This document shows, piece after piece, positions 3,312-20,929 of a stretch of 28,279 nt of DNA (positions are counted from its first letter, which is position 1; every line of letters starts with the position of its first letter). Below the pieces are notes generated by a model, which saw only the letters and a list, made by a program, of their open reading frames with translations, ran no database searches and was not told the origin of the DNA. The translations under genes and the position numbers were made by a program. Location: positions 1-28,279 of the IMG/VR virus record IMGVR_UViG_3300027710_000107; one strand, 5' to 3'. The DNA comes from a virus.

Positions 3312-3632
3312 TCATGCAGCTTTGCGCGGCCTCCCTGTTTTTTGCGCTTTAGTCATGCGTTCTATGGCTTCGCGTTCAAATTTTAAGTGCTTACCGACAC
3401 CTATATTTTTAGGCATTTTACCCGCTAAGTGCCATTCTCTAATTGTAAAAACAGACACATCTAACATTAATGCAGCTTCTCCTGTTGAGACAACATTACT
3501 CTTAGTGCCTGTTAGTTGTTCAAGCTGAGAAAGTGCATTTGTTAAAAGTTTTTCATTGTCTGCTTGCTGTTCTTTTAAAGAGCTTACTTCATGCAGCAAA
3601 GCCTTTAAAATTGTATTTAGTTCATCGCTCAC
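3312..3632 (-). CDS. HTH (MerR/excisionase-like) DNA-binding protein
   Basis: 106 aa. The N-terminal half is a heptad-like helix (SSLKEQQADNEKLLTNAL, coiled-coil character). The C-terminal half has a helix_turn_helix_17-type domain, STGEAALMLDVSVFTIREW followed by LKFEREAIERM, as found in excisionases and MerR-like regulators. It ends in a basic tail (GRPRKAA). It lies tail-to-tail with int with no spacer (int stop 3309-3311, this stop 3312-3314). Its position at the promoter-distal end of the leftward early operon makes it a candidate recombination directionality factor, although other HTH roles are possible. Confidence 0.6.
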   Translation of the reverse strand: MSDELNTILKALLHEVSSLKEQQADNEKLLTNALSQLEQLTGTKSNVVSTGEAALMLDVSVFTIREWHLAGKMPKNIGVGKHLKFEREAIERMTKAQKTGRPRKAA

Positions 3633-3644
3633 TTTTCAACTCCC

Positions 3645-3668
3645 AATAAAAAACCGCCCGAAGGCGGC
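3645..3668 (-). terminator. Rho-independent terminator (leftward)
   Basis: On the minus strand: CCGCC, TTCG, GGCGG, then TTTTTT and ATTG. It follows the 146-aa gene at 3713-4153 and lies before the HTH gene. It matches the hairpin at 2020-2040 in inverse orientation. Confidence 0.85.
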
Positions 3669-3712
3669 TATGAATAATTCCATGAATAAAAAACTACGAA
3701 AATTACAGAAAA

Positions 3713-4153
3713 TTAAGACATCATTTGCAAAATATTCGACTTATTCATTGCCTCACGACACATATCAGCCATCGCTTTATTAGCAGTAGCTTTTTCGTAG
3801 TGGCAATTTCCCAAGTGATGACGCTCATAATCTGAAAACTTTGCCGCGCATTTCATAAGGGCATCTTCTAATACCGCTATAAACTGTTTTTCGGCTTCAG
3901 TAATATTTTTCTGTGCCTGCATGATTTTACAATCAGCATCTTCAACGCCAAAAATCTTCAATATCGCAAAAGCCAACTGCTGCTGGTGAGAATTGCTTGT
4001 GTAGCGATAGTTGTAGTTGATTTGCACAAAATCAAATGGTTCTTTTTCCCCTTCATGCTGAGTTTTGATATGCACAACGCCGTCAAAGCCTTTTTCAGCC
4101 CACACTTTTGTTGGCATGATTTTTACCACCGTTGCTTTTTGTACTGTATCCAT
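3713..4153 (-). CDS. Hypothetical phage early protein, 146 aa
   Basis: ATG 4153 is preceded by GGGGATCGGGA, a usable ribosome site. No domain is recognised. The first 60 residues look beta-rich (TVVKIMPTKVWAEKG, VHIKTQ, FVQINYNYRY). The rest is helical, with a Cys/His-containing stretch around MKCAAKFSDYERHHLGNCHY (residues 99-118) that could bind metal, though the spacing is not a known motif. It belongs to the leftward early operon, 13 nt downstream of the 116-aa gene, and has its own terminator. Confidence 0.6.
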   Translation of the reverse strand: MDTVQKATVVKIMPTKVWAEKGFDGVVHIKTQHEGEKEPFDFVQINYNYRYTSNSHQQQLAFAILKIFGVEDADCKIMQAQKNITEAEKQFIAVLEDALMKCAAKFSDYERHHLGNCHYEKATANKAMADMCREAMNKSNILQMMS

Positions 4154-4166
4154 TCCCGATCCCCGT

Positions 4167-4517
4167 TTAAACTTCTAACACCATCAAATCATTAAGCACC
4201 TGCTTGTAAACGGCACGTAATTCATCATCAAGACCATAATCATCGGCTTTTGCGCGATACCGCTTTATCAGTTTTTGATTATCGGTATTGATATGCTCAA
4301 CCACGCGCCAATCTCTCGCACTTAGCGTCCAGCTTGCCGTTTCTTCATAAAACCGCCAAATGCCACCAACATTTTTAAGCTCATTAAAAACAACCACCTC
4401 ATGCCCGATAAATATAATTTTCAGCCGTGCGATATGACCATCTTCTGCGCCCTCGATCACGTCACCAACAACAAACCCGCGCTTTTCGCAGATCAGCGCA
4501 TTGTCCGATTTAGCCAT
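4167..4517 (-). CDS. Hypothetical phage early protein, 116 aa
   Basis: ATG 4517 with AGAGGT eight bases upstream. The sequence begins MAKSDNALICEKRGF and has a beta-rich first half (VGDVIEG, ARLKIIFIGHEVVVFNE, GGIWRFYEE), suggesting a small beta-barrel fold. Charged helices follow (NQKLIKRYRAKADDYGL). No family is recognised. It is closely followed by the 146-aa gene, and a terminator (4535-4560) separates it from the gene upstream. Confidence 0.6.
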   Translation of the reverse strand: MAKSDNALICEKRGFVVGDVIEGAEDGHIARLKIIFIGHEVVVFNELKNVGGIWRFYEETASWTLSARDWRVVEHINTDNQKLIKRYRAKADDYGLDDELRAVYKQVLNDLMVLEV

Positions 4518-4534
4518 ATTTACCTCTTTTTTGA

Positions 4535-4562
4535 CAATAAAAAACCCTCAGTTGAGGGTAGG
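4535..4562 (-). terminator. Rho-independent terminator (leftward)
   Basis: On the minus strand: ACCCTC, loop AACT, GAGGGT, then TTTTTTATTG. It follows the 288-aa gene at 4612-5478. Its tail GGTTTTTTATTG is shared with the other terminators of this operon. Confidence 0.85.
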
Positions 4563-4611
4563 TGTTTGCGAATTAGCTTTTTAGGCATTTTGCCTTACTG
4601 CCTTGGCGTTA

Positions 4612-5478
4612 TCAGGCCGCCACGTTATAGCTTTTCTTAATAACGCCTTTCTCGCTACTGCCAACAACACACGCATTAACCCATACGTTACCAGTATCAA
4701 GCCGTCTAATATGGCCGCGCCGCAAGTGTTGTCTTGGGCTTTCATGTGTGCCTGTTCGCGTACCAGTGCCTTGTTTTGCATTTACTTTAATCGTCAATAT
4801 GCGTTCTTCATAAAGCGGTAACTTGCCTTTATTAACGCGCCTTGCGTTTAATGCGGCATCGTATTTTTGAATAATGGTTTGCTCTACGTTTTTACAGGTT
4901 AGGGCTTCTATCAGTTCAAGAACTGTAGTTATCACCAACTCTCTAAAAAATTCAAGACCTAAGCCTTTTGTTGGGTTAGCCATCTCATCTATTTCATTAA
5001 CAAAAGAAAACGACAACCCATTAAACGCTGGCTCTGTTTCAAAGTAAAACTTAAAACAACCATCTTCTTTTTTAACGTAACTTGAAAAATCTAATGGGAT
5101 TCTCACAAAAAATGGAAACGGTATCCATTTCGTAATTAACTTGTTTTTTATATATGCGCCAACAGTAAAGAAATCATTAGTTTTCTTGTTGTTCTTGCAG
5201 ACAGAATCATTCATGCAAACAATAAGCAGCTTGCTAACACCATAATCAACAGATATAGAAATTTTATCGTAAGGCAGATGTATTTTTGTGCCAATAATCC
5301 CCTTAAAGCCATCATCGAATATATAAGGGTCATTTATTGAGAAGTTAACAGAATCATTAAGTGCAATATCAAAAAAACCAGCATCAGATAATGTTGATAA
5401 GCTGTCTTCATTAAATCTAAAAGACTGAATATAGTCATTTTCTTTTTTAACTTGCGCCGCATAGTTCTTTGCTTGCAT
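4612..5478 (-). CDS. Phage protein with C-terminal R-x-H-x-R-R-G-H motif, 288 aa
   Basis: ATG 5478 is chosen because GGAG lies 6 nt upstream; an upstream TTG at 5490 overlaps that ribosome site. The first ~170 residues are beta-rich with many aromatic residues (FFVRIPLDFSSYV, FYFETEPAFNGLSFSF). A helical region (~180-225) follows. The C-terminal ~55 residues carry the pattern HESPRQHLRRGHIRRL followed by VWVNACVVG. From memory, a very similar R-x-H-x-R-R-G-H ... WV ... VG tail ends many otherwise unrelated proteins of phages and mobile elements, with unknown function. The invariant His/Arg residues suggest nucleic-acid or phosphate contact. It lies in the leftward early operon. Confidence 0.6.
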   Translation of the reverse strand: MQAKNYAAQVKKENDYIQSFRFNEDSLSTLSDAGFFDIALNDSVNFSINDPYIFDDGFKGIIGTKIHLPYDKISISVDYGVSKLLIVCMNDSVCKNNKKTNDFFTVGAYIKNKLITKWIPFPFFVRIPLDFSSYVKKEDGCFKFYFETEPAFNGLSFSFVNEIDEMANPTKGLGLEFFRELVITTVLELIEALTCKNVEQTIIQKYDAALNARRVNKGKLPLYEERILTIKVNAKQGTGTRTGTHESPRQHLRRGHIRRLDTGNVWVNACVVGSSEKGVIKKSYNVAA

Positions 5479-5517
5479 AAATATCTCCAAGTTGCGCGTT
5501 ACGATTTGTGTGAGGCA

Positions 5518-5745
5518 TTAGCAATTAATGCAGTACATCATTCGTCCTGCTTCAGTCAGTTCGTAACCCTTAATTGTCACGCCATTAAAAACAATCTCTT
5601 TCTCCGCCAACAATAAATCATCGACCAATTTCTTGGCCGTTTTTGACTTAGTTTGCATCAAGTGTGGAATGTTTTTATTTAGTGCTGAATTAACTTCAGC
5701 CTCATACGCTTTTTCTAGCAAGTTGCGTTCTTTTGAGCTAACCAT
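5518..5745 (-). CDS. Small hypothetical phage protein, 75 aa
   Basis: ATG 5745 has AGGA eight bases upstream. The protein is mostly helical (SSKERNLLEKAYEAEVNSAL, TAKKLVDDLLLAEKEI), then a short beta hairpin (IVFNGVTIKGYELT) and a C-terminal MYCINC with two cysteines. The layout resembles small winged-helix-like phage proteins, but no family is recognised. It is 39 nt upstream of the 288-aa gene with no terminator between them, so the two are probably co-transcribed. Confidence 0.55.
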   Translation of the reverse strand: MVSSKERNLLEKAYEAEVNSALNKNIPHLMQTKSKTAKKLVDDLLLAEKEIVFNGVTIKGYELTEAGRMMYCINC

Positions 5746-6302: not shown

Positions 6303-7037
6303 TCAAATAGTGGTATTTATTGCATGGCGAAATCTATCACCCATATCAATCTGCATTTTCCCTTGTTCTTGAACCAGTAACGCATTTAGCTCATGCGGCA
6401 ACTCCTTCATGTTGTTGCGCATAAATGCACGTTCAATAGCAAACACCCCATTTTTGAGCTTTGAACTTTCGATAGCCATGTCTTTTAATCGGCGTTGCGC
6501 TTCGGGAAAAAATACAACTGGCATATTGGCCGCAGGTAAGCCGCCAGATAGTTCACGCATCACACGCCATGCCCACCATTCAGCACTTTGTTTCAGATGA
6601 AAGGCATTGGCAATGCAATCAACCATGTACGATAGTTCTCGGTACTGTTTTGGACTAATAGGTTCAACAGATGGCTTAGGTGGTTGCGGTATCGTGTAGC
6701 TGCCAGTTTTGCGTATGCTTGGCAAGACTTCGGACGTTACCCACTTTTTGAACTTCTTGGCTTCGGGTTTGCGGCTTTTCAGAATGGCAGAATAAAGGCC
6801 GCTTTCGTTGATAACGGTCATTTGTTGATTGCCAGAGGGGGTACTCACATTGTGAGTACCCTTTTCATCGTCATCTAAAAAGCGAGTCATATTAGCAGCA
6901 TCACGATATTCAAGTGCGGCTGCAACATCGCCAGCAACGAACCAAGGGTTACCGTCAATAACGATAACGCGAACATCAAAAGAGGGTTGGAATTGAAATA
7001 CAGAAACGGCGGACGAATTTTGGCTAGAGTTAGTCAT
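6303..7037 (-). CDS. ant: BRO-N domain phage antirepressor
   Basis: 244 aa from ATG 7037, which has GAGG at the usual distance (GAGGTCATTATG). The frame is open further upstream to 7172, but that stretch is the RNA leader. Residues ~10-112 form a BRO-N domain: FDVRVIVIDGNPWFVAGDVA, NMTRFLDDDEKGTH, VINESGLYSAILKSRKPEAKKFKKWVTSEVLPSIRKTGSY (in parts). Bro-N proteins of temperate phages act as antirepressors or DNA-binding regulators. The C-terminal half (~140-244) is helical and is not a KilAC or P22AR domain that I recognise. The gene has its own promoter, RNA leader and terminator, like the C4-controlled ant genes of P1/P7 and relatives. Confidence 0.8.
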   Translation of the reverse strand: MTNSSQNSSAVSVFQFQPSFDVRVIVIDGNPWFVAGDVAAALEYRDAANMTRFLDDDEKGTHNVSTPSGNQQMTVINESGLYSAILKSRKPEAKKFKKWVTSEVLPSIRKTGSYTIPQPPKPSVEPISPKQYRELSYMVDCIANAFHLKQSAEWWAWRVMRELSGGLPAANMPVVFFPEAQRRLKDMAIESSKLKNGVFAIERAFMRNNMKELPHELNALLVQEQGKMQIDMGDRFRHAINTTI

Positions 7038-7275
7038 AATGACCTCGTGTTTAAACAGATTATAAACCTGCCCCAAACCGTCAAATTTGGGTGGCAGACT
7101 GAACAGGGTTGACGGACTGGTAAACACGAACCAGCAAGCCCGAAGGCTTCCCCATTCAGCCAACCATAACACGGGTGTAGCTGAACGATACGCAATAAAA
7201 AACCGCTTAACGCGGTATTTGCGTGTGTTTACTTATCAGGCCGTCAAACCTGCCTGCCCGATGTGGGGCATTGCA
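7038..7275 (-). ncRNA. C4-like antisense RNA / leader of the antirepressor gene
   Basis: The transcript from the promoter at 7279-7307 would contain GGTTTGACGG (minus strand, ~7240-7252), a terminator hairpin (7193-7218), then a ~150-nt leader with CCGTCAACCC and TTTGACGGTTTGGGGCAGG before the ant start. GGTTTGACGG is complementary to CCGTCAACC apart from one bulged base, so the 5' RNA can pair with the ant leader. In one frame the leader encodes VYQSVNPVQSAT, the signature of Icd-like ORFs found in C4 loci. In P1/P7 the C4 RNA silences ant this way. Boundaries are estimates. Confidence 0.5.
7193..7218 (-). terminator. Terminator/attenuator inside the ant leader
   Basis: On the minus strand: ACCGC, loop GTTAA, GCGGT, then TTTTTTATTG. 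It lies between the leader promoter (7279-7307) and ant, so it can end a short RNA upstream of ant. Confidence 0.8.
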
Positions 7276-7278
7276 ATC

Positions 7279-7307
7279 ATCATAGTCATAAGTTTGTTTT
7301 CCGTCAA
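7279..7307 (-). promoter_or_regulatory. Promoter for the antirepressor leader RNA
   Basis: On the minus strand: -35 TTGACG (7302-7307), 17-bp spacer, -10 TATGAT (7279-7284). It sits downstream of HU and upstream of the C4-like region. Confidence 0.7.
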
Positions 7308-7347
7308 TAAAACATTTACCCACTCGCAAGAATGGATAAAGGTCTTA

Positions 7348-7363
7348 GCCCTCAAAAGAGGGC
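7348..7363 (-). other. Small hairpin after the HU gene
   Basis: GCCCTC, loop of four bases, GAGGGC, 9 nt past the HU stop. Similar hairpins follow the BRO-N gene (6285-6297) and the first leftward gene (10591-10608). None has a U tract, so they are more likely RNA 3'-end or processing structures than terminators. Confidence 0.55.
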
Positions 7364-7371
7364 ATGGACTG

Positions 7372-7644
7372 CTACATAACCGCGTCTTTCAATCCTTTAC
7401 CTGCTTTGAATTGCGGTGTTTTACTCGCAGCAATAGGGATTGTTTCACCAGTCTTAGGGTTACGCCCAGTGCGTGCGGCTCTATCCTTAACGCTAAAAGA
7501 GCCAAAGCCAACAAGGGTTACATCTTCACCACGCGCTAAGGCATTGGTGATATTGGCTGTTACCGCATCAAGCAACTTGGCGGCTTTCTCTTGTGAGACT
7601 TCAACATCTTCGGCAATTGCTTTAACTAAATCTGACTTGTTCAT
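7372..7644 (-). CDS. hup: HU-family DNA-binding protein
   Basis: 90 aa from ATG 7644 (MNKSDLVKAIAE), which has AGAG upstream. Upstream in-frame codons to 7737 do not match HU and are excluded. The full HU fold is present: N-terminal helices (DLVKAIAEDVEVSQEKAAKL), then VTLVGFGSFSVKDRAARTGRNP with the DNA-intercalating arm (RNPKTGETI), ending KTPQFKAGKGLKDAV. HU bends and compacts DNA and assists site-specific recombination and replication initiation. Phage-encoded copies are known. Here it may assist integrase, the origin or repressor loops. It is followed by a hairpin and then the ant leader promoter. Confidence 0.9.
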   Translation of the reverse strand: MNKSDLVKAIAEDVEVSQEKAAKLLDAVTANITNALARGEDVTLVGFGSFSVKDRAARTGRNPKTGETIPIAASKTPQFKAGKGLKDAVM

Positions 7645-7660
7645 GGTTTTTCTCTTGTGG

Positions 7661-7750
7661 TTAATCATCGTTGTCGTATGCACCATCGTCCTCGAACGGT
7701 TCATCGTCGAAGGGGTCAGGGCGGTATTCATCTTCATGGCGGTGAATCAA
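7661..7750 (-). CDS. Possible small acidic protein, 29 aa
   Basis: TTG 7750 start with GGAG about ten bases upstream, ending TAA at 7661. The predicted peptide is very acidic (DEYRPDPFDDEPFEDD). It fills the gap between the exonuclease and HU genes and ends 16 nt before the HU start, a spacing normal for this operon. No homologue is recognised. The TTG start keeps confidence low. Confidence 0.35.
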   Translation of the reverse strand: MIHRHEDEYRPDPFDDEPFEDDGAYDNDD

Positions 7751-7768
7751 TTACGAACATCTCCGTTG

Positions 7769-8458
7769 TTAGGCTTGGGTTAATGCCTTACGCAAGTAAG
7801 GGTCTAGGTCGGTTTGCTTTAACAGCCATTGCTTGTAATCAATTGGCAGTAACTCAATTTTTTGACCGTTATGCTTGCCAAAGGTAATGATCTTTGGAAT
7901 ACGTGCCATTTCCGAAAACTGGTACAGCTCCTCAAAATTCGTTGCCTTGGTCAATGGCAACAACAATTCAAGCAACCGTAACGTCATCCACACATCATCT
8001 AAGGCTGAATGTGCGCTTGTGGCGTTTGCCCGTGCAAAGTCATAATCTAGCGCGTACAGCATGGCCGTGAGCTTGTGTGAGTCAATCTCAGGGAACAAAT
8101 AACGCGCCATAGCCAGTGTACAAATGCGCTTAGGCTCAGGTTGCACGCCGCACGATTGAATGATCTGCCAATCAAAATCAATATTATGGCCAATCATGTA
8201 TTCAACGCTTTCGGGGAGTGCGAACGTGGTGTAAGGCTCGCAATCAATCACATCGCTATTAGTAATGTGGTGCGTGGCCATTGCGCCAAATTCAATCGGC
8301 TGCATAGGGTTAAACAGTTGACGATATTCAAAAACAATATCAAACCCGCGAATAATCATCGGGTGAGTTAGCAGTCTTGATACATCAATATAAGCCACCT
8401 CAACAGGGCGTGCGTTTTTTAGCCCTGTTGTTTCAGTGTCCAAAATAATCACGCGCAT
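7769..8458 (-). CDS. ExoX-like DnaQ-family 3'-5' exonuclease
   Basis: 229 aa from ATG 8458 (GGAG 5 nt upstream); a GTG at 8479 is less likely. DEDDh exonuclease motifs: ILDTETTG (D7, E9), GHNIDFDW (~95-102), and HSALDD near residues 150-156. The C-terminal region, ITFGKHNGQKIELLPIDYKQWLL (in parts), matches the ExoX-type C-terminal domain. It probably trims 3' single-stranded DNA ends. Beside a Sak4-like recombinase it makes up a phage recombination module. The ATG is 21 nt from the recombinase stop, so the two are coupled. Confidence 0.85.
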   Translation of the reverse strand: MRVIILDTETTGLKNARPVEVAYIDVSRLLTHPMIIRGFDIVFEYRQLFNPMQPIEFGAMATHHITNSDVIDCEPYTTFALPESVEYMIGHNIDFDWQIIQSCGVQPEPKRICTLAMARYLFPEIDSHKLTAMLYALDYDFARANATSAHSALDDVWMTLRLLELLLPLTKATNFEELYQFSEMARIPKIITFGKHNGQKIELLPIDYKQWLLKQTDLDPYLRKALTQA

Positions 8459-8478
8459 AAAAACTCCAAAACCACGCA

Positions 8479-9837
8479 CTAGGCGGCGTGGTCTGAATGA
8501 GTGGTGTAGTTGATTTCGTCGGATCGGTTGTAAAATGCGGTATTAAATACGGCGTTTTGTGCCTCAGTAATAACCCCAGTAAACGACTCAACATCTAACT
8601 TCCAAACATCACTCAACTCCTCAGTAGTGGTTGCTGATTTGATTTTAGCCAAAACAACATCAACATCTTCTTGAGTCATTGGTGTGACTTCATTTCTGCG
8701 TTTTTGGTAAGCCCGATTAAGCGTTTCACGGTCTTTGTCAGAAATATCTTTAGGAACGGCTGACACAGCGGCTTTTAACACCTCCATATTAACGGCGTTG
8801 GTAATCGACTTGATTAGAGCTATAACATCGACTTTCTTAGGCTCTGCTACTGGCACTGGCTGTTGCTCGGTCGGGTCTGTGACAGGAGCTAACGGCAAAG
8901 TGCTACTAGCCTCTTTATCAAGAAAACGACCTTCTTCTTTGCTATACACAACTGGCAATGCCTTTGCCGCCTGTGAAAATGCCGTTCTCATTTGAGCGAT
9001 GTACGGGTGATCGGCATTGACGTTGTAAATAAGCTCGTTTAGAGCCTGTGCGTTTTCACATAACAGACAGTCATTTTTCCAGTTTTGCAGGTCATCAAGG
9101 TGCTTGGCTTCTTCGACCTGAGCTTCGGTTAGGCTGTTGATGTGGTCTTTTCCTTGTTGAATCAAATTGCCCAAAAAGCTAGGCTCATTTACAAGGTCAG
9201 GCAGGGCAACATCACCTAAACCGCCTGAGTTTTTTGCGTGGTAGGCGGTAGATGGTGAGAAGTTCAACATCCGTACTTGTTTGCCTTGTTCGCCTGATAC
9301 ATTTGTCAAATAGGCCATTAAATCAGCTTGGCGATACAGTTCGTTTTTGTTCTTTCCGCCAACATCGGGACGGAAAATAATGTCATCACCTTTTTTATCT
9401 TCGGCGGCATGAGCCAGAATAATCACGTCTTTGCCATAACTGCGAATACGAGTGATCCAGTTTTTGAATAACTCATTAGCGATGCCTTGAGCCTTGAGCT
9501 TTAACGAGCCGTCATTTTGACGATTGGCTTTGTTTTCAGCCAAGTGCGTTTTAATCATGTCCAGCGCACGGCCAGCGGTATCAATGACGATAGATTGATA
9601 GCTTTCAACATCACAGGCTTCAATATTGGCAACATCAAGCCAATGCTCAACAGGGACGGTAGCCCCACGGCGTAATTTACCGCTACGATGTGCGCCTGCA
9701 TCAAAGTCGAACAGAATCGGGTTTTTCGCGGTGTAGGCGAGGGACGTTTTACCAATGCCGGGGTCTGCATAAATGTATGCCACCAAGCAGTTGACGCGCA
9801 TGGTTTGCGCTGCGCTAACGACGCTTTTTAACGCCAT
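8479..9837 (-). CDS. Sak4-like RecA-fold ATPase (phage recombinase)
   Basis: 452 aa, ATG 9837 with GGAG 7 nt upstream. Walker A ADPGIGKTS (24-32), then ILFDFDAGAHR, and a Walker B-like YQSIVIDTAGRAL (~82-94). DVIILAHAAEDKK and FRPDVGGKNKNEL follow, the typical core of phage AAA_24/Sak4 NTPases. Sak4 proteins are minimal RecA-like single-strand annealing or recombination ATPases. The core ends near residue 235. The long C-terminal extension (235-452) is helical and contains two related repeats (DVIALIKSITNAVNMEVLKAAV and DVDVVLAKIKSATTTEELSDV), a duplication seen in other phage recombination proteins. It is coupled to the ExoX-like gene. Confidence 0.8.
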   Translation of the reverse strand: MALKSVVSAAQTMRVNCLVAYIYADPGIGKTSLAYTAKNPILFDFDAGAHRSGKLRRGATVPVEHWLDVANIEACDVESYQSIVIDTAGRALDMIKTHLAENKANRQNDGSLKLKAQGIANELFKNWITRIRSYGKDVIILAHAAEDKKGDDIIFRPDVGGKNKNELYRQADLMAYLTNVSGEQGKQVRMLNFSPSTAYHAKNSGGLGDVALPDLVNEPSFLGNLIQQGKDHINSLTEAQVEEAKHLDDLQNWKNDCLLCENAQALNELIYNVNADHPYIAQMRTAFSQAAKALPVVYSKEEGRFLDKEASSTLPLAPVTDPTEQQPVPVAEPKKVDVIALIKSITNAVNMEVLKAAVSAVPKDISDKDRETLNRAYQKRRNEVTPMTQEDVDVVLAKIKSATTTEELSDVWKLDVESFTGVITEAQNAVFNTAFYNRSDEINYTTHSDHAA

Positions 9838-10628: not shown

Positions 10629-10811
10629 TTAGCGGCGGCGTGGTGGTAAGCCACAAGCAGCACGAAATTCGTCATCGTCTTGCGCCGAACGGTTTGCGCG
10701 GTGTGCGTATTCAGAGTCTTTTTCTGATTGAATAGCGGCTTGTTTTTCGGCATGCTGTTGACTGATAACAGCGTTTCTTGTGGCTTGGTTTGTGTAGCGG
10801 CTAATGTGCAT
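10629..10811 (-). CDS. First gene of the leftward early operon, 60 aa, unknown
   Basis: ATG 10811 (MHISRYTNQATRN) is favoured since GGAG lies 9 nt upstream; ATG 10826 would add five residues. The protein is helical and very polar, with an N-terminal Arg-containing segment, a central Gln/Glu/Lys helix and a C-terminal LPPRRR. It occupies the place of lambda N, directly behind the leftward promoter. It is not clearly an arginine-rich antiterminator, so that role is only a possibility, raised by the serial terminators downstream. Confidence 0.55.
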   Translation of the reverse strand: MHISRYTNQATRNAVISQQHAEKQAAIQSEKDSEYAHRANRSAQDDDEFRAACGLPPRRR

Positions 10812-10844
10812 TTTGTGTTGCTCCATACGGGTTGGTATGGATTA

Positions 10845-10896
10845 AATATAAGTTATCTTACTTTTTAATGCAAGATAACTTAGTAAGATAACTTAT
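10845..10896 (-). promoter_or_regulatory. Leftward early promoter with three repressor operators (OL)
   Basis: Promoter on the minus strand: -35 TTGCAT (10868-10873), 17-bp spacer, -10 TATATT (10845-10850). Operators: ATAAGTTATCTTAC (10848-10861), CAAGATAACTTA (10871-10882) and GTAAGATAACTTAT (10883-10896). The first is the exact reverse complement of the third and is identical to the operator at 13680-13693 next to the repressor gene. Repressor bound here would cover both promoter boxes. Confidence 0.85.
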
Positions 10897-10960: not shown

Positions 10961-11074
10961 ATGAGGGGAGTAGCGGCGTTATGGGGTATGTTCCACGGCT
11001 TACGGGGTATGCTTTTTTGGCAGAAGGAATATTGCAGGTGTAAAAAAGCCCTCACTGGGAGGGCTTTGGGTTAA
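10961..11074 (+). CDS. Doubtful rightward ORF, 37 aa, in the gap between OL and the kinase pair
   Basis: The 190-nt stretch 10897-11089 has no clear leftward gene. On the plus strand ATG 10961 has GAGGGG five bases upstream and codes for a peptide with ALWGMFHGLRGMLFWQKEY and two cysteines. It runs through the terminator hairpin at 11045-11067, which argues against it. A second ATG (10948) opens another 31-codon frame. No promoter is evident. Confidence 0.2.
   Translation: MRGVAALWGMFHGLRGMLFWQKEYCRCKKALTGRALG
11040..11067 (-). terminator. Rho-independent terminator of the immunity operon
   Basis: On the minus strand: AAAGCCCTC, loop CCAGT, GAGGGCTTT, then a T run. It is 22 nt after the DUF3037 gene stop and ends the operon that begins at the repressor. 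Confidence 0.9.
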
Positions 11075-11089: not shown

Positions 11090-12022
11090 TCAAGCCAACT
11101 CCGCCGCCGCTTCATAAATTTTTTGCTTATCATCCGTCACTACAACATTGACTGGGTAGCCATTCTTTTTCATTTGATTGATAGCGTATAAAGAACTGTC
11201 TATCTCGTTATCAATTTGCGCGTTAAGTGCTTCACTAAATCCAGCGTCAACCGACGGCCTGTAAATAAAAATGCCACTTTTTGAACGCTTGCCTAGCATT
11301 TCACACGCATTACGCACGTTTAGGCAGCCGTGTGCAATATGGTAGCCGCGATGCGTAGGGTCTTTATAGGCTGCCGATACTATTGTGCCAAAGCAAGAAG
11401 GGGCTTCATCTTGCAGATTGCCGTTGCTGTTCCAAATAGGCAGGTCAATATAAATCCCGTTTGAGCCTGTGGCATCACGAATATATACAGGGGTGTCGCG
11501 GTAAATACGCTCATACACGCTTGGCATTTCTTTTTTAAGTCGGCCAAAAATTGTTTGTCTTAGTTTGGAGGTATGCAAGGAGTCCTTGTCTTTTAAGACG
11601 GTATTATCCTCATCAATACACTGCAAGTTCACCATGGTGTTGTACAGTGAGTCGATGATGTCGGCGATGCTGTTGCCTGAGGCATAAGCGGTATCGGTAA
11701 ACAAAATATGGGGTGACGACGGTGTTGCAAAATCATTTTGATAAAAGCGTTTTTTAATGGTGTTGAGCAAAAAATTAAAATTATCCAGTCCTTTGTAGCC
11801 AAATAAACACTGGAACGGGCGTGCATCGGGAATGAGGCGATGATGAATTTGCCCTGTATTATCAATCATTGCGACACCGACGTTAAACAATTCGCCTGTG
11901 ACTAAATCGGGAATGAGTCGTAAGGTAAACCATTGTCCACTCACCAAAGGTAAATCAGACGCATCATCAAACAACGCACTAAAGGCTAAATCAGGTGTTG
12001 ATACCGTTGGCGAATGAGACAT
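11090..12022 (-). CDS. DUF3037-like protein, partner of the HipA-like kinase
   Basis: 310 aa. ATG 12022 has AGGAG 7 nt upstream and overlaps the kinase gene by 37 nt. Residues ~29-55 (GQWFTLRLIPDLVTGELFNVGVAMID) carry the DUF3037 hallmark: a leading beta strand, then a PD-x-x-x-GE-x-x-NVGV pattern. A long mixed alpha/beta region follows with no recognised catalytic motif. DUF3037 genes often lie beside HipA-like kinase genes in bacteria (from memory), which suggests a substrate, inhibitor or regulatory partner. The pair is transcribed leftward from the repressor side and ends at the terminator 11040-11067. It sits in the lysogeny-expressed rexAB position. A toxin-antitoxin or superinfection-exclusion role is inference. 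Confidence 0.65.
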   Translation of the reverse strand: MSHSPTVSTPDLAFSALFDDASDLPLVSGQWFTLRLIPDLVTGELFNVGVAMIDNTGQIHHRLIPDARPFQCLFGYKGLDNFNFLLNTIKKRFYQNDFATPSSPHILFTDTAYASGNSIADIIDSLYNTMVNLQCIDEDNTVLKDKDSLHTSKLRQTIFGRLKKEMPSVYERIYRDTPVYIRDATGSNGIYIDLPIWNSNGNLQDEAPSCFGTIVSAAYKDPTHRGYHIAHGCLNVRNACEMLGKRSKSGIFIYRPSVDAGFSEALNAQIDNEIDSSLYAINQMKKNGYPVNVVVTDDKQKIYEAAAELA

Positions 12023-12831
12023 GAGACCGCTCCTGTGCGCTGCTGCAAAAAGTCGTAAAAAGCTTGTTGTTCTTGTGGCTCTTTAATAAACGATTGTATC
12101 CAGTATAGCAATTCATTCTCAATATGATTCGTGCTTGTTGCGTGTTGATCAGCACAAAACAGTGTGTGGTGAATATTTTTTTTAGTGGGTTGATGCAGCC
12201 AAATATGTTCAGAAAGTCGGTTGCGATAGAGTTTGTCCGCGTCAAGCATTCCTACCGTCCAGCGTTCGCTTTTATCACAGACAAGACGGCCATTATCAAT
12301 GGCGGCGTAAGTATGCTTTTTGATGCGTAATAAGTTGTTGATGTGGCGGTCGGTGTGGGCAATATTTTCGTCTAATGCAATGGTTTTTGGTAAATCAGGC
12401 CATGCGGCAATGTCGTCACAAACATCTTGCGAGCTTTCTGTTATATATATTCCTGCACTTTTTCCATCGAGTCGCGTGGTGCAAAACACTGGATAATATG
12501 TATAGGATAGTAACCAATGGCTTTCACCCAATTGAGCAGACAGTTCTTTGTACATAGCATGGATTGGAATTTGAGCAATAAAGGCATGGATTGGTTGAGG
12601 TACGCCTAGCGCATGAGCAAACAAATAGCCTATGATTTCGTTAATAAGGCCACGTTCTCCTTCATTAAGTGGGTAAATTTTGCAATAGGCTGTCACAGGT
12701 TTGGCAAGGTTTGGGTGGCTAAATGTCGCTACAAATACAGGATTAAGATTCTGAACCTTGGGATCTGCCCAACCAATAAATGAGCCAAAACAACGGGCAT
12801 TAAGCGTGGAAATAATCCGTTCAGTCGTCAT
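11986..12831 (-). CDS. HipA-like protein kinase
   Basis: 281 aa, ATG 12831 with AAGGA upstream. Kinase-fold features: AYCKIYP (Lys51, ATP-phosphate lysine), EIIGYLFAHALGVPQP (residues 65-80, Glu65 as the helix partner), catalytic loop HTDRHINNLL (159-168; D161, N165/166), metal-binding AAIDNGRL (176-183; D179). This matches the short HipA-like kinases, which lack the classical HipA N-terminal domain, more than full-length HipA (~440 aa). HipA-family kinases phosphorylate translation factors such as aminoacyl-tRNA synthetases and halt growth. No HipB-type antitoxin gene is adjacent. The companion is DUF3037, and the upstream CI has the nearest HTH. The operon order CI, membrane peptide, kinase, DUF3037 suggests expression in the lysogen. 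Confidence 0.75.
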   Translation of the reverse strand: MTTERIISTLNARCFGSFIGWADPKVQNLNPVFVATFSHPNLAKPVTAYCKIYPLNEGERGLINEIIGYLFAHALGVPQPIHAFIAQIPIHAMYKELSAQLGESHWLLSYTYYPVFCTTRLDGKSAGIYITESSQDVCDDIAAWPDLPKTIALDENIAHTDRHINNLLRIKKHTYAAIDNGRLVCDKSERWTVGMLDADKLYRNRLSEHIWLHQPTKKNIHHTLFCADQHATSTNHIENELLYWIQSFIKEPQEQQAFYDFLQQRTGAVSCLIRQRYQHLI

Positions 12832-12888: not shown

Positions 12889-12993
12889 TTATTTAAAACA
12901 CTCATAAATAGCCGAGCCAATACCAGCGATAACCATTGCTATCACTATATGTTTCATGTGTTTTTCGATGAATTTGTCGCTGTAGATGTACAT
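12889..12993 (-). CDS. Small single-pass membrane protein, 34 aa, between repressor and kinase
   Basis: ATG 12993 has AAGGA 7 nt upstream; TAA at 12889. Short polar N-terminus (MYIYSDKFIEKHMK), then a hydrophobic segment (HIVIAMVIAGIGSAIYE) long enough for one membrane span, and a Cys/Lys end. It lies 29 nt after the repressor stop and 14 nt before the leader peptide of the kinase, so it is part of the same operon. Such peptides can be membrane sensors or toxins, but nothing in the sequence fixes the role. Confidence 0.55.
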   Translation of the reverse strand: MYIYSDKFIEKHMKHIVIAMVIAGIGSAIYECFK

Positions 12994-13022: not shown

Positions 13023-13679
13023 TTACGTCAAATCTAACGACGCGCTCACCACCGTTCCAATAATGACAGTTCCCTCGGTGATTGGAATAATTTGATACTG
13101 TGAGTTAAACGGTCTTAAATAGCTTCTATCGCCGTCAATCACCAACTCTTTAACGGTGGCTTTGTCACTATCCGACAAACGAGCGACCACAATACTTCTA
13201 TGTCTTGCCTGCTTCTCAGGATCAACAACAACAATCATACCCTCACTGAGCGAGCGTCTTTCCGATGTGTTGGCCATTGAGTCGCCCACAACTCGCAGTG
13301 CAAACGCATAGCGACTATTGGCCTGTAGTGTAGGTATCCATTCGCTAATATCAGACTCATCAAACCCCGTCTTAATATCCGTCCATGCACCTGCTTGCAC
13401 TTCATTTATCACTGGCACAAGTCCTTTTAGGCGTGGTGCTGCTTCTACGTTTTCGTGTATGTCGTTGGGTGAGCCTTTTCCGCTCATCAAATAGTCAGGA
13501 GTACAACTTAAAACTTGAGAAAGCTTGAGAAGGTTATCTCCTTTTGGCGATGTTTGATTATTTTCCCACTGGGTAATAGTTGGACTAGAGACACCGATTT
13601 TTCGTGCCACCTCAGCCTGAGTCATTTTATGTTTTTTGCGTAGTTCACGGACACGCTCGCCGATTTCGAATGTATTCAT
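13023..13679 (-). CDS. cI: CI-type prophage repressor (XRE HTH + S24 peptidase)
   Basis: 218 aa. The HTH domain (residues 4-60) shows MTQAEVARKIGVSSPTITQW. The S24/LexA-like domain (~90-215) has a cleavage site in VQAGAW (A96-G97), a catalytic Ser in VVGDSMAN (S134) and a Lys in ATVKELV (K177), so RecA-stimulated self-cleavage is expected. It maintains lysogeny by binding the AAGWWWWCTT-type operators at 13680-13742 and 10848-10896. The ATG (13679) touches the first operator and has no Shine-Dalgarno sequence, so the maintenance mRNA is probably leaderless or nearly so, as with lambda PRM. Downstream in the same direction are the membrane peptide and kinase genes. Confidence 0.92.
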   Translation of the reverse strand: MNTFEIGERVRELRKKHKMTQAEVARKIGVSSPTITQWENNQTSPKGDNLLKLSQVLSCTPDYLMSGKGSPNDIHENVEAAPRLKGLVPVINEVQAGAWTDIKTGFDESDISEWIPTLQANSRYAFALRVVGDSMANTSERRSLSEGMIVVVDPEKQARHRSIVVARLSDSDKATVKELVIDGDRSYLRPFNSQYQIIPITEGTVIIGTVVSASLDLT

Positions 13680-13745
13680 ATAAGTTATCTTACATCTTGT
13701 CTAAGTAAGTTTTCTGTGTAAAAATACAGTAAGAAAACTTATTAT
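13680..13745. promoter_or_regulatory. Divergent early promoter/operator region (OR)
   Basis: Three operator-like sites: ATAAGTTATCTTAC (13680-13693, identical to one OL copy), GTAAGTTTTCT (13705-13715) and GTAAGAAAACTTAT (13729-13742); shared core AAGWWWWCTT. Rightward promoter candidate: TTGTCT (13697-13702), 16 bp, TAAAAA (13719-13724). Leftward maintenance promoter candidate on the minus strand: TTTACA, 17 bp, CAAGAT. Both are weak matches, as expected for repressor-controlled promoters, and the exact start sites are uncertain. Confidence 0.75.
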
Positions 13746-13760
13746 TGACGGGTCTACAAA

Positions 13761-13946
13761 ATGACTAAACAAGAAGCCTACGAACTGCTTAATTGCAACG
13801 GGGCAGAGCTAGCTGAAAAACTTGGCATTACGCCAACTGCCGTTTATTTGTGGCCAGACGAAGCCATTCCTGTTGGTCGCGCATATCAAATTAAAGACTT
13901 GGCAAACGGCAAAGAGCCTCTGCGAGTAAAAAAACAAGCCGCCTAA
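13761..13946 (+). CDS. cro: Cro-like HTH regulator, 61 aa
   Basis: First rightward gene after OR, divergent from the repressor. The HTH is visible in GAELAEKLGITPTAVYLW, followed by AIPVGRAYQIKDL, which matches the short Cro/YdaS-type phage regulators. It should bind the same operators and repress lysogeny genes. Its ATG has only a weak upstream ACGGG, so expression may be low. Confidence 0.75.
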   Translation: MTKQEAYELLNCNGAELAEKLGITPTAVYLWPDEAIPVGRAYQIKDLANGKEPLRVKKQAA

Positions 13947-17924: not shown

Positions 17925-18675
17925 AATCTTTTTGGGTGAAATCAAAAAAGACAATTGCCAAAAACACGGCAGGTATTACGAAAACCGTTTGTTGTTTGGC
18001 CGCTGGACTGGATGCCCTGATTGCAACATCGAGCTGGTTGCTGAGTTGGATAAAAAACGTGAAGCCGAAGAACTTGAAAAGCGTAGAGCTAAGATACTTG
18101 TATCTGCATACATTCCTGAGATGTTTGTTAATGCAGGGTTTAAAAACTATGAGGCTGAATCTAATGGCAAGTCGTTCGCACTAAACAACGTCCGTGATTA
18201 TGTTAGTAGACTTAAAATTGATTTAAAAACAGCAGGCAACCTTGTCATGACTGGTCACACGGGGAACGGGAAAACTCACCTTGCGGCGGCTGTATTACGA
18301 GTTATGGCGCACTCAATGCGTCGAGTCCGTTACGTTACATCAGCTCAGATGATTAGCGAGTGCTTCGCTACTTGGGACGACAAAAGCAAGACCATTGAAC
18401 AAGTGGTGACCCATTACGCCAGTTATGACGTGTTGCTGATTGATGAGGTCGGTCTAAACGATTGCACCACGGAAAAGGCACAGTCGTATCTCACGCAAAT
18501 CATTGATGCCCGTTATCTCGCTAAACGACCAACAATTACAACATCAAATCTCTTTGAAGATAAATTTCATAAGTTGCTTGGCGACCGTTCGTTTGATCGC
18601 CTTTGTGAAAACAGCCTTGTGATTCGGTTTGATTGGGAAAGCTATCGTCAGCAGTCAAGACGGAGTGGAGTATGA
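17908..18675 (+). CDS. dnaC: DnaC-like replicative helicase loader
   Basis: 255 aa. Walker A GHTGNGKT (116-123), Walker B VLLIDE (175-180), sensor-type TTSN (211-214), and N-terminal cysteines C17, C36, C39 (CPDC) that may bind metal. This is the architecture of DnaC/IstB-like AAA+ loaders. It would load the host DnaB helicase at the iteron origin under the control of the preceding initiator. It overlaps that gene by 17 nt and the methyltransferase gene by 4 nt. Confidence 0.88.
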   Translation: MTSHSKIFLGEIKKDNCQKHGRYYENRLLFGRWTGCPDCNIELVAELDKKREAEELEKRRAKILVSAYIPEMFVNAGFKNYEAESNGKSFALNNVRDYVSRLKIDLKTAGNLVMTGHTGNGKTHLAAAVLRVMAHSMRRVRYVTSAQMISECFATWDDKSKTIEQVVTHYASYDVLLIDEVGLNDCTTEKAQSYLTQIIDARYLAKRPTITTSNLFEDKFHKLLGDRSFDRLCENSLVIRFDWESYRQQSRRSGV

Positions 18676-20177
18676 AATACGGCTCTGTATGTTCAGGCAT
18701 CGAAGCTGCAACCGTGGCATGGCATAAAATTGGCTTGGCCCCTGCGTGGTTTTCTGAGATTGAACCATTTCCATGTTCGGTATTGGCACATCACTATCCC
18801 CATGTGCCTAATTTGGGTGATATGACCAAAATTAAAAACCGTGTGCTTAACCAATCGGTCGTAGCCCCCGATGTTTTAGTTGGCGGAACCCCGTGTCAAT
18901 CATTTTCAGTGGCAGGTTTACGCGAAGGCTTAGACGAGAGCCGTGGCCAGTTAACTTTAGAGTTTGTGAGATTAGCTAATGCAATTGACTTTATTCGCGC
19001 AAGAAAAGGCCAACCCCCCTCAATCATCGTGTGGGAAAACGTACACGGTGTCCTCAGCTCCAAAGACAACGCGTTCGGCTGCTTTTTGGCTGGGCTTGCA
19101 GGGGAAGATAACGAACTACACCCGTCAGGGAAAAAATGGACGAACAGTGGTTGTGTGTTTGGACCCGAAAGAACAATCGCATGGCGAACACTTGATGCTC
19201 AATATTTCGGACTGGCCCAACGACGCAAGCGTGTGTTCGTTATCGCAAGTGCTAGAAAAGACATTGATTGCACCAAAATTCTTTTTGAGCGCGACAGCGT
19301 GCGTAGGGATACTCCGCCGTGCAGACAGTCGCAACAAGACCTTGCCGCCACAATTGAAGCAAGCCTTGGAAGGAGTCGCGGCGCAGGAACGCCCATAGGT
19401 GGTTTGATTTCTTCTAAACAGTGGCCCACTGATATTACTGCAACATTAAATGCTGCCTTTGGTTCAAAGCTTGGATTAGAGAATCAGCATATAGATGGTG
19501 GCGCATCTCTTTTTGTGCCTGCGATCATCACTTTAACGAGCAAACAACAGTCATTAAATACAGGTAACGATATTGCACTAACGGTATGTGCCAATGACTA
19601 TAAAGAGCCACAAGTCGTTTGTTTCCACCCAACACAAGACCCGATTAGTAGTGTCGATGGTTTAAGTCATAGCCTTGGTTGCGGTTCATCAAATGGCCAA
19701 GCCAGTGTTGCCGTAGCTTACTCGTTTGATAGTTTGGCAAGTAACTCTATGAAGTCTGCTAATCCCCATAGTGGATGCAGACAGGTTGATTTAAGTAAAA
19801 CTATCGATACAGCAACTCCTTGCCCAAGTAAAAATCAAGGCGGATTAGCTCTTGTTCAATCAGTCACCTATGGCATACCTGCCAATTGGATCGGCCGCAA
19901 ACCTGAGAATGGCGGTAATGCCACCGAGCCACCGATTGAACTATCACCGTGCCTGACAAAAACGGATGTTCATGCTGTTCAAACACAAATGCAAGTACGT
20001 CGTTTAACGCCGCGTGAGTGTGAACGGTTACAAGGCTTTCCTGACGATTACACTTTAATTCCGCACAAAGGCAAATCAGCCGCCGATAGCCCACGGTACA
20101 AAGCTTTGGGTAACTCAATGGCCGTGCCTGTGATGGCATGGATTGGTGAACGTATTCAGCAGGCGGTGAAAGCATGA
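18672..20177 (+). CDS. dcm: C5 cytosine-specific DNA methyltransferase
   Basis: 501 aa from ATG 18672 (ATGA overlap with the loader stop); the frame extends upstream but starts inside the previous gene. Motif I GSVCSGIEAA (4-13), catalytic motif IV GGTPCQSFS with Cys75, motif VI ENVHG (122-126), motif VIII QRRKRVF (~191-197), motif IX RRLTPRECERLQGFPDDY and motif X ALGNSM near the end. The region between motif VIII and IX is long and variable, and holds the target-recognition domain. It methylates cytosine at an unknown site, most likely to protect phage DNA from host restriction. No cognate restriction gene is in the window. Confidence 0.93.
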   Translation: MKYGSVCSGIEAATVAWHKIGLAPAWFSEIEPFPCSVLAHHYPHVPNLGDMTKIKNRVLNQSVVAPDVLVGGTPCQSFSVAGLREGLDESRGQLTLEFVRLANAIDFIRARKGQPPSIIVWENVHGVLSSKDNAFGCFLAGLAGEDNELHPSGKKWTNSGCVFGPERTIAWRTLDAQYFGLAQRRKRVFVIASARKDIDCTKILFERDSVRRDTPPCRQSQQDLAATIEASLGRSRGAGTPIGGLISSKQWPTDITATLNAAFGSKLGLENQHIDGGASLFVPAIITLTSKQQSLNTGNDIALTVCANDYKEPQVVCFHPTQDPISSVDGLSHSLGCGSSNGQASVAVAYSFDSLASNSMKSANPHSGCRQVDLSKTIDTATPCPSKNQGGLALVQSVTYGIPANWIGRKPENGGNATEPPIELSPCLTKTDVHAVQTQMQVRRLTPRECERLQGFPDDYTLIPHKGKSAADSPRYKALGNSMAVPVMAWIGERIQQAVKA

Positions 20178-20929
20178 AAAGCGTAATAGGTAATTGCGAG
20201 TTACTGCTTGGGGATTGTCTGCAGGTGATGCAGTCAGTTCCAGACAGCAGCATACATATGATCCTTTGTGATTTACCGTATGGCACAACTCAATGTAAGT
20301 GGGATGTAGTTATTCCGTTTGCTGCGCTTTGGGAGCATTACCGTCGAATCATCAAGCCCAATGGGGTGATTGTTTTAACAGCGGCTCAACCATTCACATC
20401 TCTCTTGATAGCAAGCAATTTAGCAATGTTCCGCTATGAGTGGATTTGGGAAAAGGGAAACGCTACAGGATTTTTAAACTCAAAAATACAGCCATTACGC
20501 GCACATGAAAATGTTTGTGTTTTTTATAGTCAGCAACCCACGTATCACCCACAAATCACAAGCGGCCATAAACGCGGTACCGCTCGCCGCTCGCCTATTG
20601 ATTCTGAGTGTTACGGCAAAACATTAAAAAATACTGATTATGACTCTACCGATCGGTATCCACGCAGCGTGCAATTTTTCTCTAGCGATAAGCAAAAGGT
20701 AAATTTACACCCAACACAAAAGCCAGTTTCCTTGATGGAGTATTTGGTTCGCACATACACCAATGAGGGTGACTTGGTGATGGATAACTGCATGGGCAGC
20801 GGTACCGTGGCCGTGGCTTGCGTAAACACTAAGCGTAAATTCCTTGGCATCGAGAAAGACAAGAATTATTTCAACATGGCCTGCGAGCGAATTATTGAAT
20901 CACAAATGCAAGAGAGGTTATTCGCATGA
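20174..20929 (+). CDS. Beta-class DNA N6-adenine/N4-cytosine methyltransferase
   Basis: 251 aa, ATGA-coupled. Motif IV DLPYG (33-37) comes before the SAM-binding motif I (DNCMGSGTVAVAC, ~206-218), the beta-group order of the DAM/MboIIM-type N6/N4 MTases. NLHPTQKPVSLMEYLV precedes motif I, as is usual for this family. D-L-P-Y at the catalytic motif is a common variant of D-P-P-Y. It is probably an anti-restriction or regulatory enzyme that works beside the cytosine MTase; the target site cannot be read from sequence. Confidence 0.92.
   Translation: MKSVIGNCELLLGDCLQVMQSVPDSSIHMILCDLPYGTTQCKWDVVIPFAALWEHYRRIIKPNGVIVLTAAQPFTSLLIASNLAMFRYEWIWEKGNATGFLNSKIQPLRAHENVCVFYSQQPTYHPQITSGHKRGTARRSPIDSECYGKTLKNTDYDSTDRYPRSVQFFSSDKQKVNLHPTQKPVSLMEYLVRTYTNEGDLVMDNCMGSGTVAVACVNTKRKFLGIEKDKNYFNMACERIIESQMQERLFA

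Follow-up and report, generated by a model that had tools for sequence, protein, structure and literature searches.

The 28,279-base stretch analysed here in its entirety (the window; positions 1–28,279 of the IMG/VR virus record IMGVR_UViG_3300027710_000107) carries an apparent lambdoid immunity region, in which a CI-like repressor gene is followed on the minus strand by a 34-aa ORF, a kinase gene, a DUF3037-like gene and a terminator, in that order. The features of the region are:

10629–10826, minus strand: ORF of 65 aa, the first in the left operon, behind OL
10849–10895, no strand: predicted OL, three half-site copies beyond the pair and ahead of the left operon (half-site search)
11045–11067 (stem; T run to 11042), minus strand: predicted intrinsic terminator of the CI-kinase-DUF3037 operon (folding)
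11090–12022, minus strand: DUF3037-like protein, predicted antitoxin/regulator (310 aa; phrog_27972; shares 37 nt with the kinase gene)
11986–12831, minus strand: HipA_2-like kinase, predicted toxin/effector (281 aa; K51, E65, D161, N166, D179; phrog_11186)
12889–12993, minus strand: 34-aa ORF with a single hydrophobic stretch, between CI and kinase, probably outside the module
13023–13679, minus strand: CI-like repressor, heading the immunity operon (218 aa; HTH_3 and Peptidase_S24)
13681–13741, no strand: predicted OR, putative operator half-sites for CI/Cro in the promoter region between the divergent CI and cro genes (half-site search)
13761–13946, plus strand: cro-like gene, divergent from CI (61 aa; by position and by eye from its sequence)

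The open reading frames and their strand agree with these coordinates, the kinase and DUF3037-like genes sharing the 37 nt at 11986–12022, and the terminator folds as a nine-pair stem followed by a T run (−13.6 kcal/mol, z −4.0). An earlier interpretation made from the letters of this DNA (the sequence-only reading) had described two overlapping genes that follow CI and a small membrane peptide and end at their own terminator, and both the ORF coordinates and the folded stem agree with that description. A pattern scanner did not call the terminator at 11045–11067, probably because the stem absorbs part of the T run. The CI-like protein matches HTH_3 and Peptidase_S24 (Pfam; 3.6e-22). Elsewhere in the window, both contig ends (1–2017 and 26906–28278) fall within tail or baseplate genes, and inspection by eye recognised no gene for the head; the record could be fragmentary, or else the opened circle of a phage without a head module. 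At 18633–20929 lie two overlapping DNA methyltransferase-like genes identified by motif, the cytosine type followed by the N6/N4 type, with a DnaC-like gene preceding them.

Within the window the 13-nt half-site TAAGTTATCTTAC has five copies at two or fewer mismatches, as against an expected 0.92, and none of 100 shuffles reaches five. Two copies (13681, 13729) belong to the CI-cro promoter region and three lie at 10849–10895, just past the terminator and ahead of the left operon, with none outside these two places. Lambdoid immunity regions have their OR and OL arranged in this way, and the pair therefore lies between OL and CI, the place of rexB-rexA in lambda; the predicted sites would be expected to bind CI. 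A rexAB-like position had already been proposed, and the case for it is now stronger than first made, with a half-site common to OR and OL bracketing the pair. Both lambda and Pseudomonas putida (RexABpp; PMC12894663) are known to have Rex-type modules downstream of CI, and the window resembles these in having two genes on the CI strand, between a CI-type repressor and OL, that would likewise be expressed in the lysogen. The likeness does not extend to the proteins: RexA is a DNA-binding protein and RexB a membrane protein, both unrelated to the kinase and DUF3037-like protein encoded here.

The kinase and its DUF3037 partner

The kinase belongs to phrog_11186 (3.5e-40). On its own it found no match in Pfam, NCBIfam or PDB searches, nor to the PADLOC model PDC-M66A, and profile searches of PDB sequences returned no relative of either it or its partner. 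Within a 26-sequence alignment (relatives 17–46% identical to the window kinase) K51, E65, D161, R162, N166 and D179 are invariant, while 16 of the 26 match HipA_2/PF20613 (best 1e-8) and 7 match PDC-M66A. Of the catalytic set originally put forward, K51, D161 and D179 hold throughout, the ambiguous N165/166 narrows to N166, and E65 has to be added. An AlphaFold model (pLDDT 88.3, pTM 0.90) retrieves protein kinases from the PDB with a probability of about 1 and E of about 1e-4, yet at low TM-scores (0.3–0.4), and among viral models it retrieves one close relative (TM 0.85) followed by PI3K-like and other kinases. The structure prediction that had been suggested as a check thus supports, together with the invariant residues, a HipA-like kinase core, and fold, residues and family matches jointly point to a HipA_2-type kinase with intact predicted catalytic residues.

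The partner is a member of phrog_27972 (4.5e-54). Its match to the DUF3037 model of Pfam (E 0.0026, 18.4 bits) lies under the curated cut-off of 22.6, but the signature noticed earlier is genuine, being backed by PADLOC PDC-M66B, which matches the partner at 2e-4 and also 12 of the 26 homologues. The AlphaFold model (pLDDT 83.5, pTM 0.54) separates a DUF3037 part from a C-terminal alpha/beta part, and the comparison with the PDB gave no credible match, the C-terminal part included. There is also no Pfam match to DUF1829, a domain found in the partner of the E. coli system DS-6 (DS-6B).

Two pairs of this kind have been studied genetically. The HipA-like/DUF3037 pair carried by Retron-Sda1, named candidate PDC-M66 in PADLOC, protects E. 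coli from Bas51 even when the retron is absent; this defence is lost once the kinase is deleted, and deleting the DUF3037 gene is toxic (PMC12548924). The E. coli system DS-6, from the DefensePredictor work and renamed HipAD, couples a HipA-family kinase to a partner with DUF3037 and DUF1829; its defence is lost when the kinase carries a catalytic mutation, and AlphaFold3 predicts both a complex of the two proteins and DNA binding by the partner (PMC13092281). The name HipAD is credited there to Brenes & Laub 2025, a work on E. coli prophage defences, as far as that citation describes it. The sequence-only reading had regarded the exclusion system as undescribed, which no longer stands, because HipA-like/DUF3037 pairs have already been proven defensive (PMC12548924, PMC13092281). 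The window pair shares with HipAD a HipA-family kinase gene adjoining a DUF3037 partner gene, in the order kinase then DUF3037, along with conserved kinase residues and no HipB; it differs in a kinase that lies below HipA_2 and PDC-M66A detection, in a partner without a DUF1829 match and in its placement between CI and OL. With the Retron-Sda1 cargo it shares the two-gene kinase/DUF3037 organization and the PDC-M66B match, although that cargo is associated with a retron and not with a CI repressor. The parallel with HipBA and HipBST is confined to a kinase toxin of the HipA superfamily: the window pair is accompanied by neither HipB nor HipS, its control is attributed to DUF3037, and its kinase is shorter than classical HipA.

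Distribution and genomic neighbourhoods

Single-protein scans of IMG/VR returned no relatives for the kinase and one for the partner; a scan with the kinase family alignment gave 36 loci, the partner alignment being too divergent for scanning. The family set comprised these 36 loci, two phage records, the window and one record from a plasmid collection that, at 3.66 Mb, evidently has the size of a chromosome (individual loci, those in genomes included, carry L numbers below), and clustering at 85% kinase identity yielded 25 clusters. A DUF3037 gene adjoins or overlaps the kinase gene in all 25 clusters and in 8 further genome loci. The possibility raised at the outset, that the pair might be absent from other phages, is not borne out, the partner being constant across the 25 clusters. 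Chromosomal occurrence is sparse: 6 of 395 genomes in one survey and 4 of 369 in another contained a match.

A CI-like gene lies directly upstream in the same direction in about 18 of the 25 clusters, a count that is itself a reading, since a few short neighbours without a model match (e.g., in L006) were taken for repressors on the strength of their position and sequence pattern. A CI-like gene is likewise directly upstream in the annotated phage records Mcat22 and D14P. Among the 33 upstream neighbours scanned, 12 matched HTH_3, 10 Peptidase_S24 and 3 Phage_CI_repr. The repressors of L003, L004, L006, L010, L018 and L020 are short (154–184 aa) and have no recognised S24 domain, and several of them have in common a C-terminal motif resembling GRL(T/S)xxDxxLLxxIxxxF. 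In L011 a repressor and then an apparent lipoprotein gene (L011:5457–5879) precede the pair. Other clusters place the pair away from CI, in lysis or tail regions (L013, L016, L017, L019, L025) or beside an Ltp-type lipoprotein gene (L021), the last directly upstream of the pair at L021:5267–5788 (PF07553, 9.7e-32; assigned to L021 by eye). The lipoprotein-like genes of L011 and L021 are reminiscent of superinfection-exclusion lipoproteins. Mapped onto the kinase tree, adjacency to CI requires 7 changes of state, at least 5 of them forced by well-supported branches; these changes may be gains or losses.

One chromosomal pair (L055/L062), whose branch has matches to HipA_2 and PDC-M66A, likewise stands behind an S24 repressor, and chromosomal pairs L044 and L063 are accompanied by ATPase and HNH genes which, by eye, resemble Septu-type defence. 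This PtuAB-like pair is upstream in one and downstream in the other of these two loci (L044, about 3630–5649, from Vibrio; L063, about 6860–8900, from an Enterobacterales survey genome). When two relatives served as queries for distant DNA searches, E. coli genomes gave no match.

To place the operator bracket in this wider set, 26 loci were examined for matches between the repressor promoter region and the 300 nt that follow the DUF3037 gene. The match exceeded all stretches of the same locus and all shuffles in six loci (the window, L003, L004, L006, L010 and L030), which amount to about five independent cases because L003 and L010 are closely related. Three more (L005, L020, L023) were borderline, 10 of the 19 CI-adjacent loci gave no OL-like match above the controls, and the six control loci with the pair away from a repressor gave nothing. 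Judged from these putative sites, the operator bracket is evident in some CI-adjacent loci and not in all.

Control of the kinase

Across 20 CI-adjacent loci the similarity of kinases tracks that of their partners closely (Mantel r 0.96) and that of the repressors much less (0.45). L029 and L036 illustrate the point: their kinases and partners have score ratios of 0.84 and 0.88, while their repressors are not mutual nearest relatives, that of L036 being nearest to L005 (0.35) and that of L029 to L023 (0.26). The kinase and DUF3037 genes therefore travel as one unit while the repressor is exchanged. In these two loci the immunity gene has been swapped and the cassette has kept its place.

These patterns bear on two alternatives that would bind the kinase to the repressor. 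One is that CI itself is a HipB-like antitoxin, an HTH protein with its kinase as in hipBA, and the overlap of the repressor gene with the kinase gene in L003, L004, L006, L014, L018 and L020 does recall that operon; however, CI as cognate antitoxin was rejected, as unrelated repressors have been swapped in while the pair was retained, and with the kinase of the homologue neutralised by DUF3037 (PMC12548924) this alternative is scarcely credible. No HipB-type HTH antitoxin was found as cognate partner either: the HTH gene upstream of the pair in the window is the S24 CI repressor, of a kind that tracks the kinase weakly, and the earlier statement that the module lacks HipB remains correct.

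The other alternative is that the pair regulates the lysis-lysogeny decision, with the kinase modifying CI (or Cro or host factors) or the DUF3037 protein binding operators, and so tunes the switch, a role also proposed for lambda RexA. An operon shared with CI, between OL and OR, would suit such a role, as would the DNA binding that AlphaFold3 predicts for the E. coli partner (PMC13092281) and the bias that RexA exerts on the lambda switch (PMC11077077). Yet very similar pairs stand behind unrelated repressors (L029, L036), some pairs lie far from any repressor, and the kinase-repressor tracking is weak (r 0.45), leaving a switch function very unlikely.

For the control of the kinase, either DUF3037 or the membrane peptide had been suggested, and only the former keeps its standing. 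The 34-aa membrane ORF has a plausible ribosome-binding site by eye, but found no match among phages; as an antitoxin it was rejected, the other CI-adjacent loci having a repressor/kinase overlap or a gap of less than 90 nt, with L011 as the exception. Both the published work on homologues and the way in which the two proteins have diverged in step mark the DUF3037 protein as the probable antitoxin of the kinase.

A toxin and antitoxin of this description could also serve purely in addiction, stabilising the prophage with no anti-phage role, such that prophage loss frees the kinase and the cured cell is killed or arrested. The toxicity of DUF3037 deletion in the homologue (PMC12548924) would be expected of such a system, as would a pair that is mobile and autonomous of the repressor. 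Against this, two homologous pairs defend against phage (PMC12548924, PMC13092281), and chromosomal copies sit beside defence-like genes, where prophage retention brings no benefit; pure addiction is considered unlikely.

Probable kinase-based exclusion from the immunity operon

The reading best in accord with these observations, at a probability of roughly three in four, is that the window pair is a divergent HipAD (PDC-M66) toxin-antitoxin module that the lysogen expresses together with CI and that acts by abortive infection against superinfecting phages. It draws on the kinase fold and residues, the constant pairing, the adjacency to CI, the operator bracket, the terminator, the genetics of the homologues and the defence-like neighbours. 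On the other side stand a window kinase that neither HipA_2 nor PDC-M66A matches, a partner in which DUF1829 was not detected, and the relatives in lysis or tail regions, which imply that the family does not require expression from an immunity operon. The growth-arrest role in exclusion that was first suggested thus appears likely, given that the homologous pairs need their kinase for defence and suffer toxicity on DUF3037 loss; defence by the window pair itself we infer from these homologues.

From the anatomy of the operon, CI-driven transcription in the lysogen would place CI, the kinase and the DUF3037 protein on one message. The DUF3037 protein would keep the kinase inactive, presumably by direct binding, the relief of toxicity being genetic and known from the homologue. 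A superinfecting phage might disturb this control and release the kinase, which would then phosphorylate a target in the cell, such that growth stops and the foreign infection is aborted. Upon induction, the loss of CI would turn the operon off, and the prophage would proceed unhindered by its own module.

A broader proposal, for and against which the odds seem even, is that the CI-OL region is a recurrent docking site, which a separate kinase/DUF3037 defence cassette has entered in several lineages of phages whose repressors are unrelated, so that position by itself couples defence to lysogeny; the phage subfamily, which current defence-finding models largely fail to see, would then form a second class of Rex-like exclusion, one based on a kinase. 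The pair itself is known in kind. The recurrent use of the CI-OL slot may be new, being unmentioned in the literature covered, to which Brenes & Laub 2025 does not belong.

In these terms, a kinase defence proven in E. coli and in a retron cargo would extend to diverse temperate phages, in the place that lambda gives to rexAB. The slot would offer a natural logic of expression—on in the lysogen and off upon induction—and the trigger and target of HipAD would become testable in small phages, most of whose kinases of this family are missed by present annotation models.
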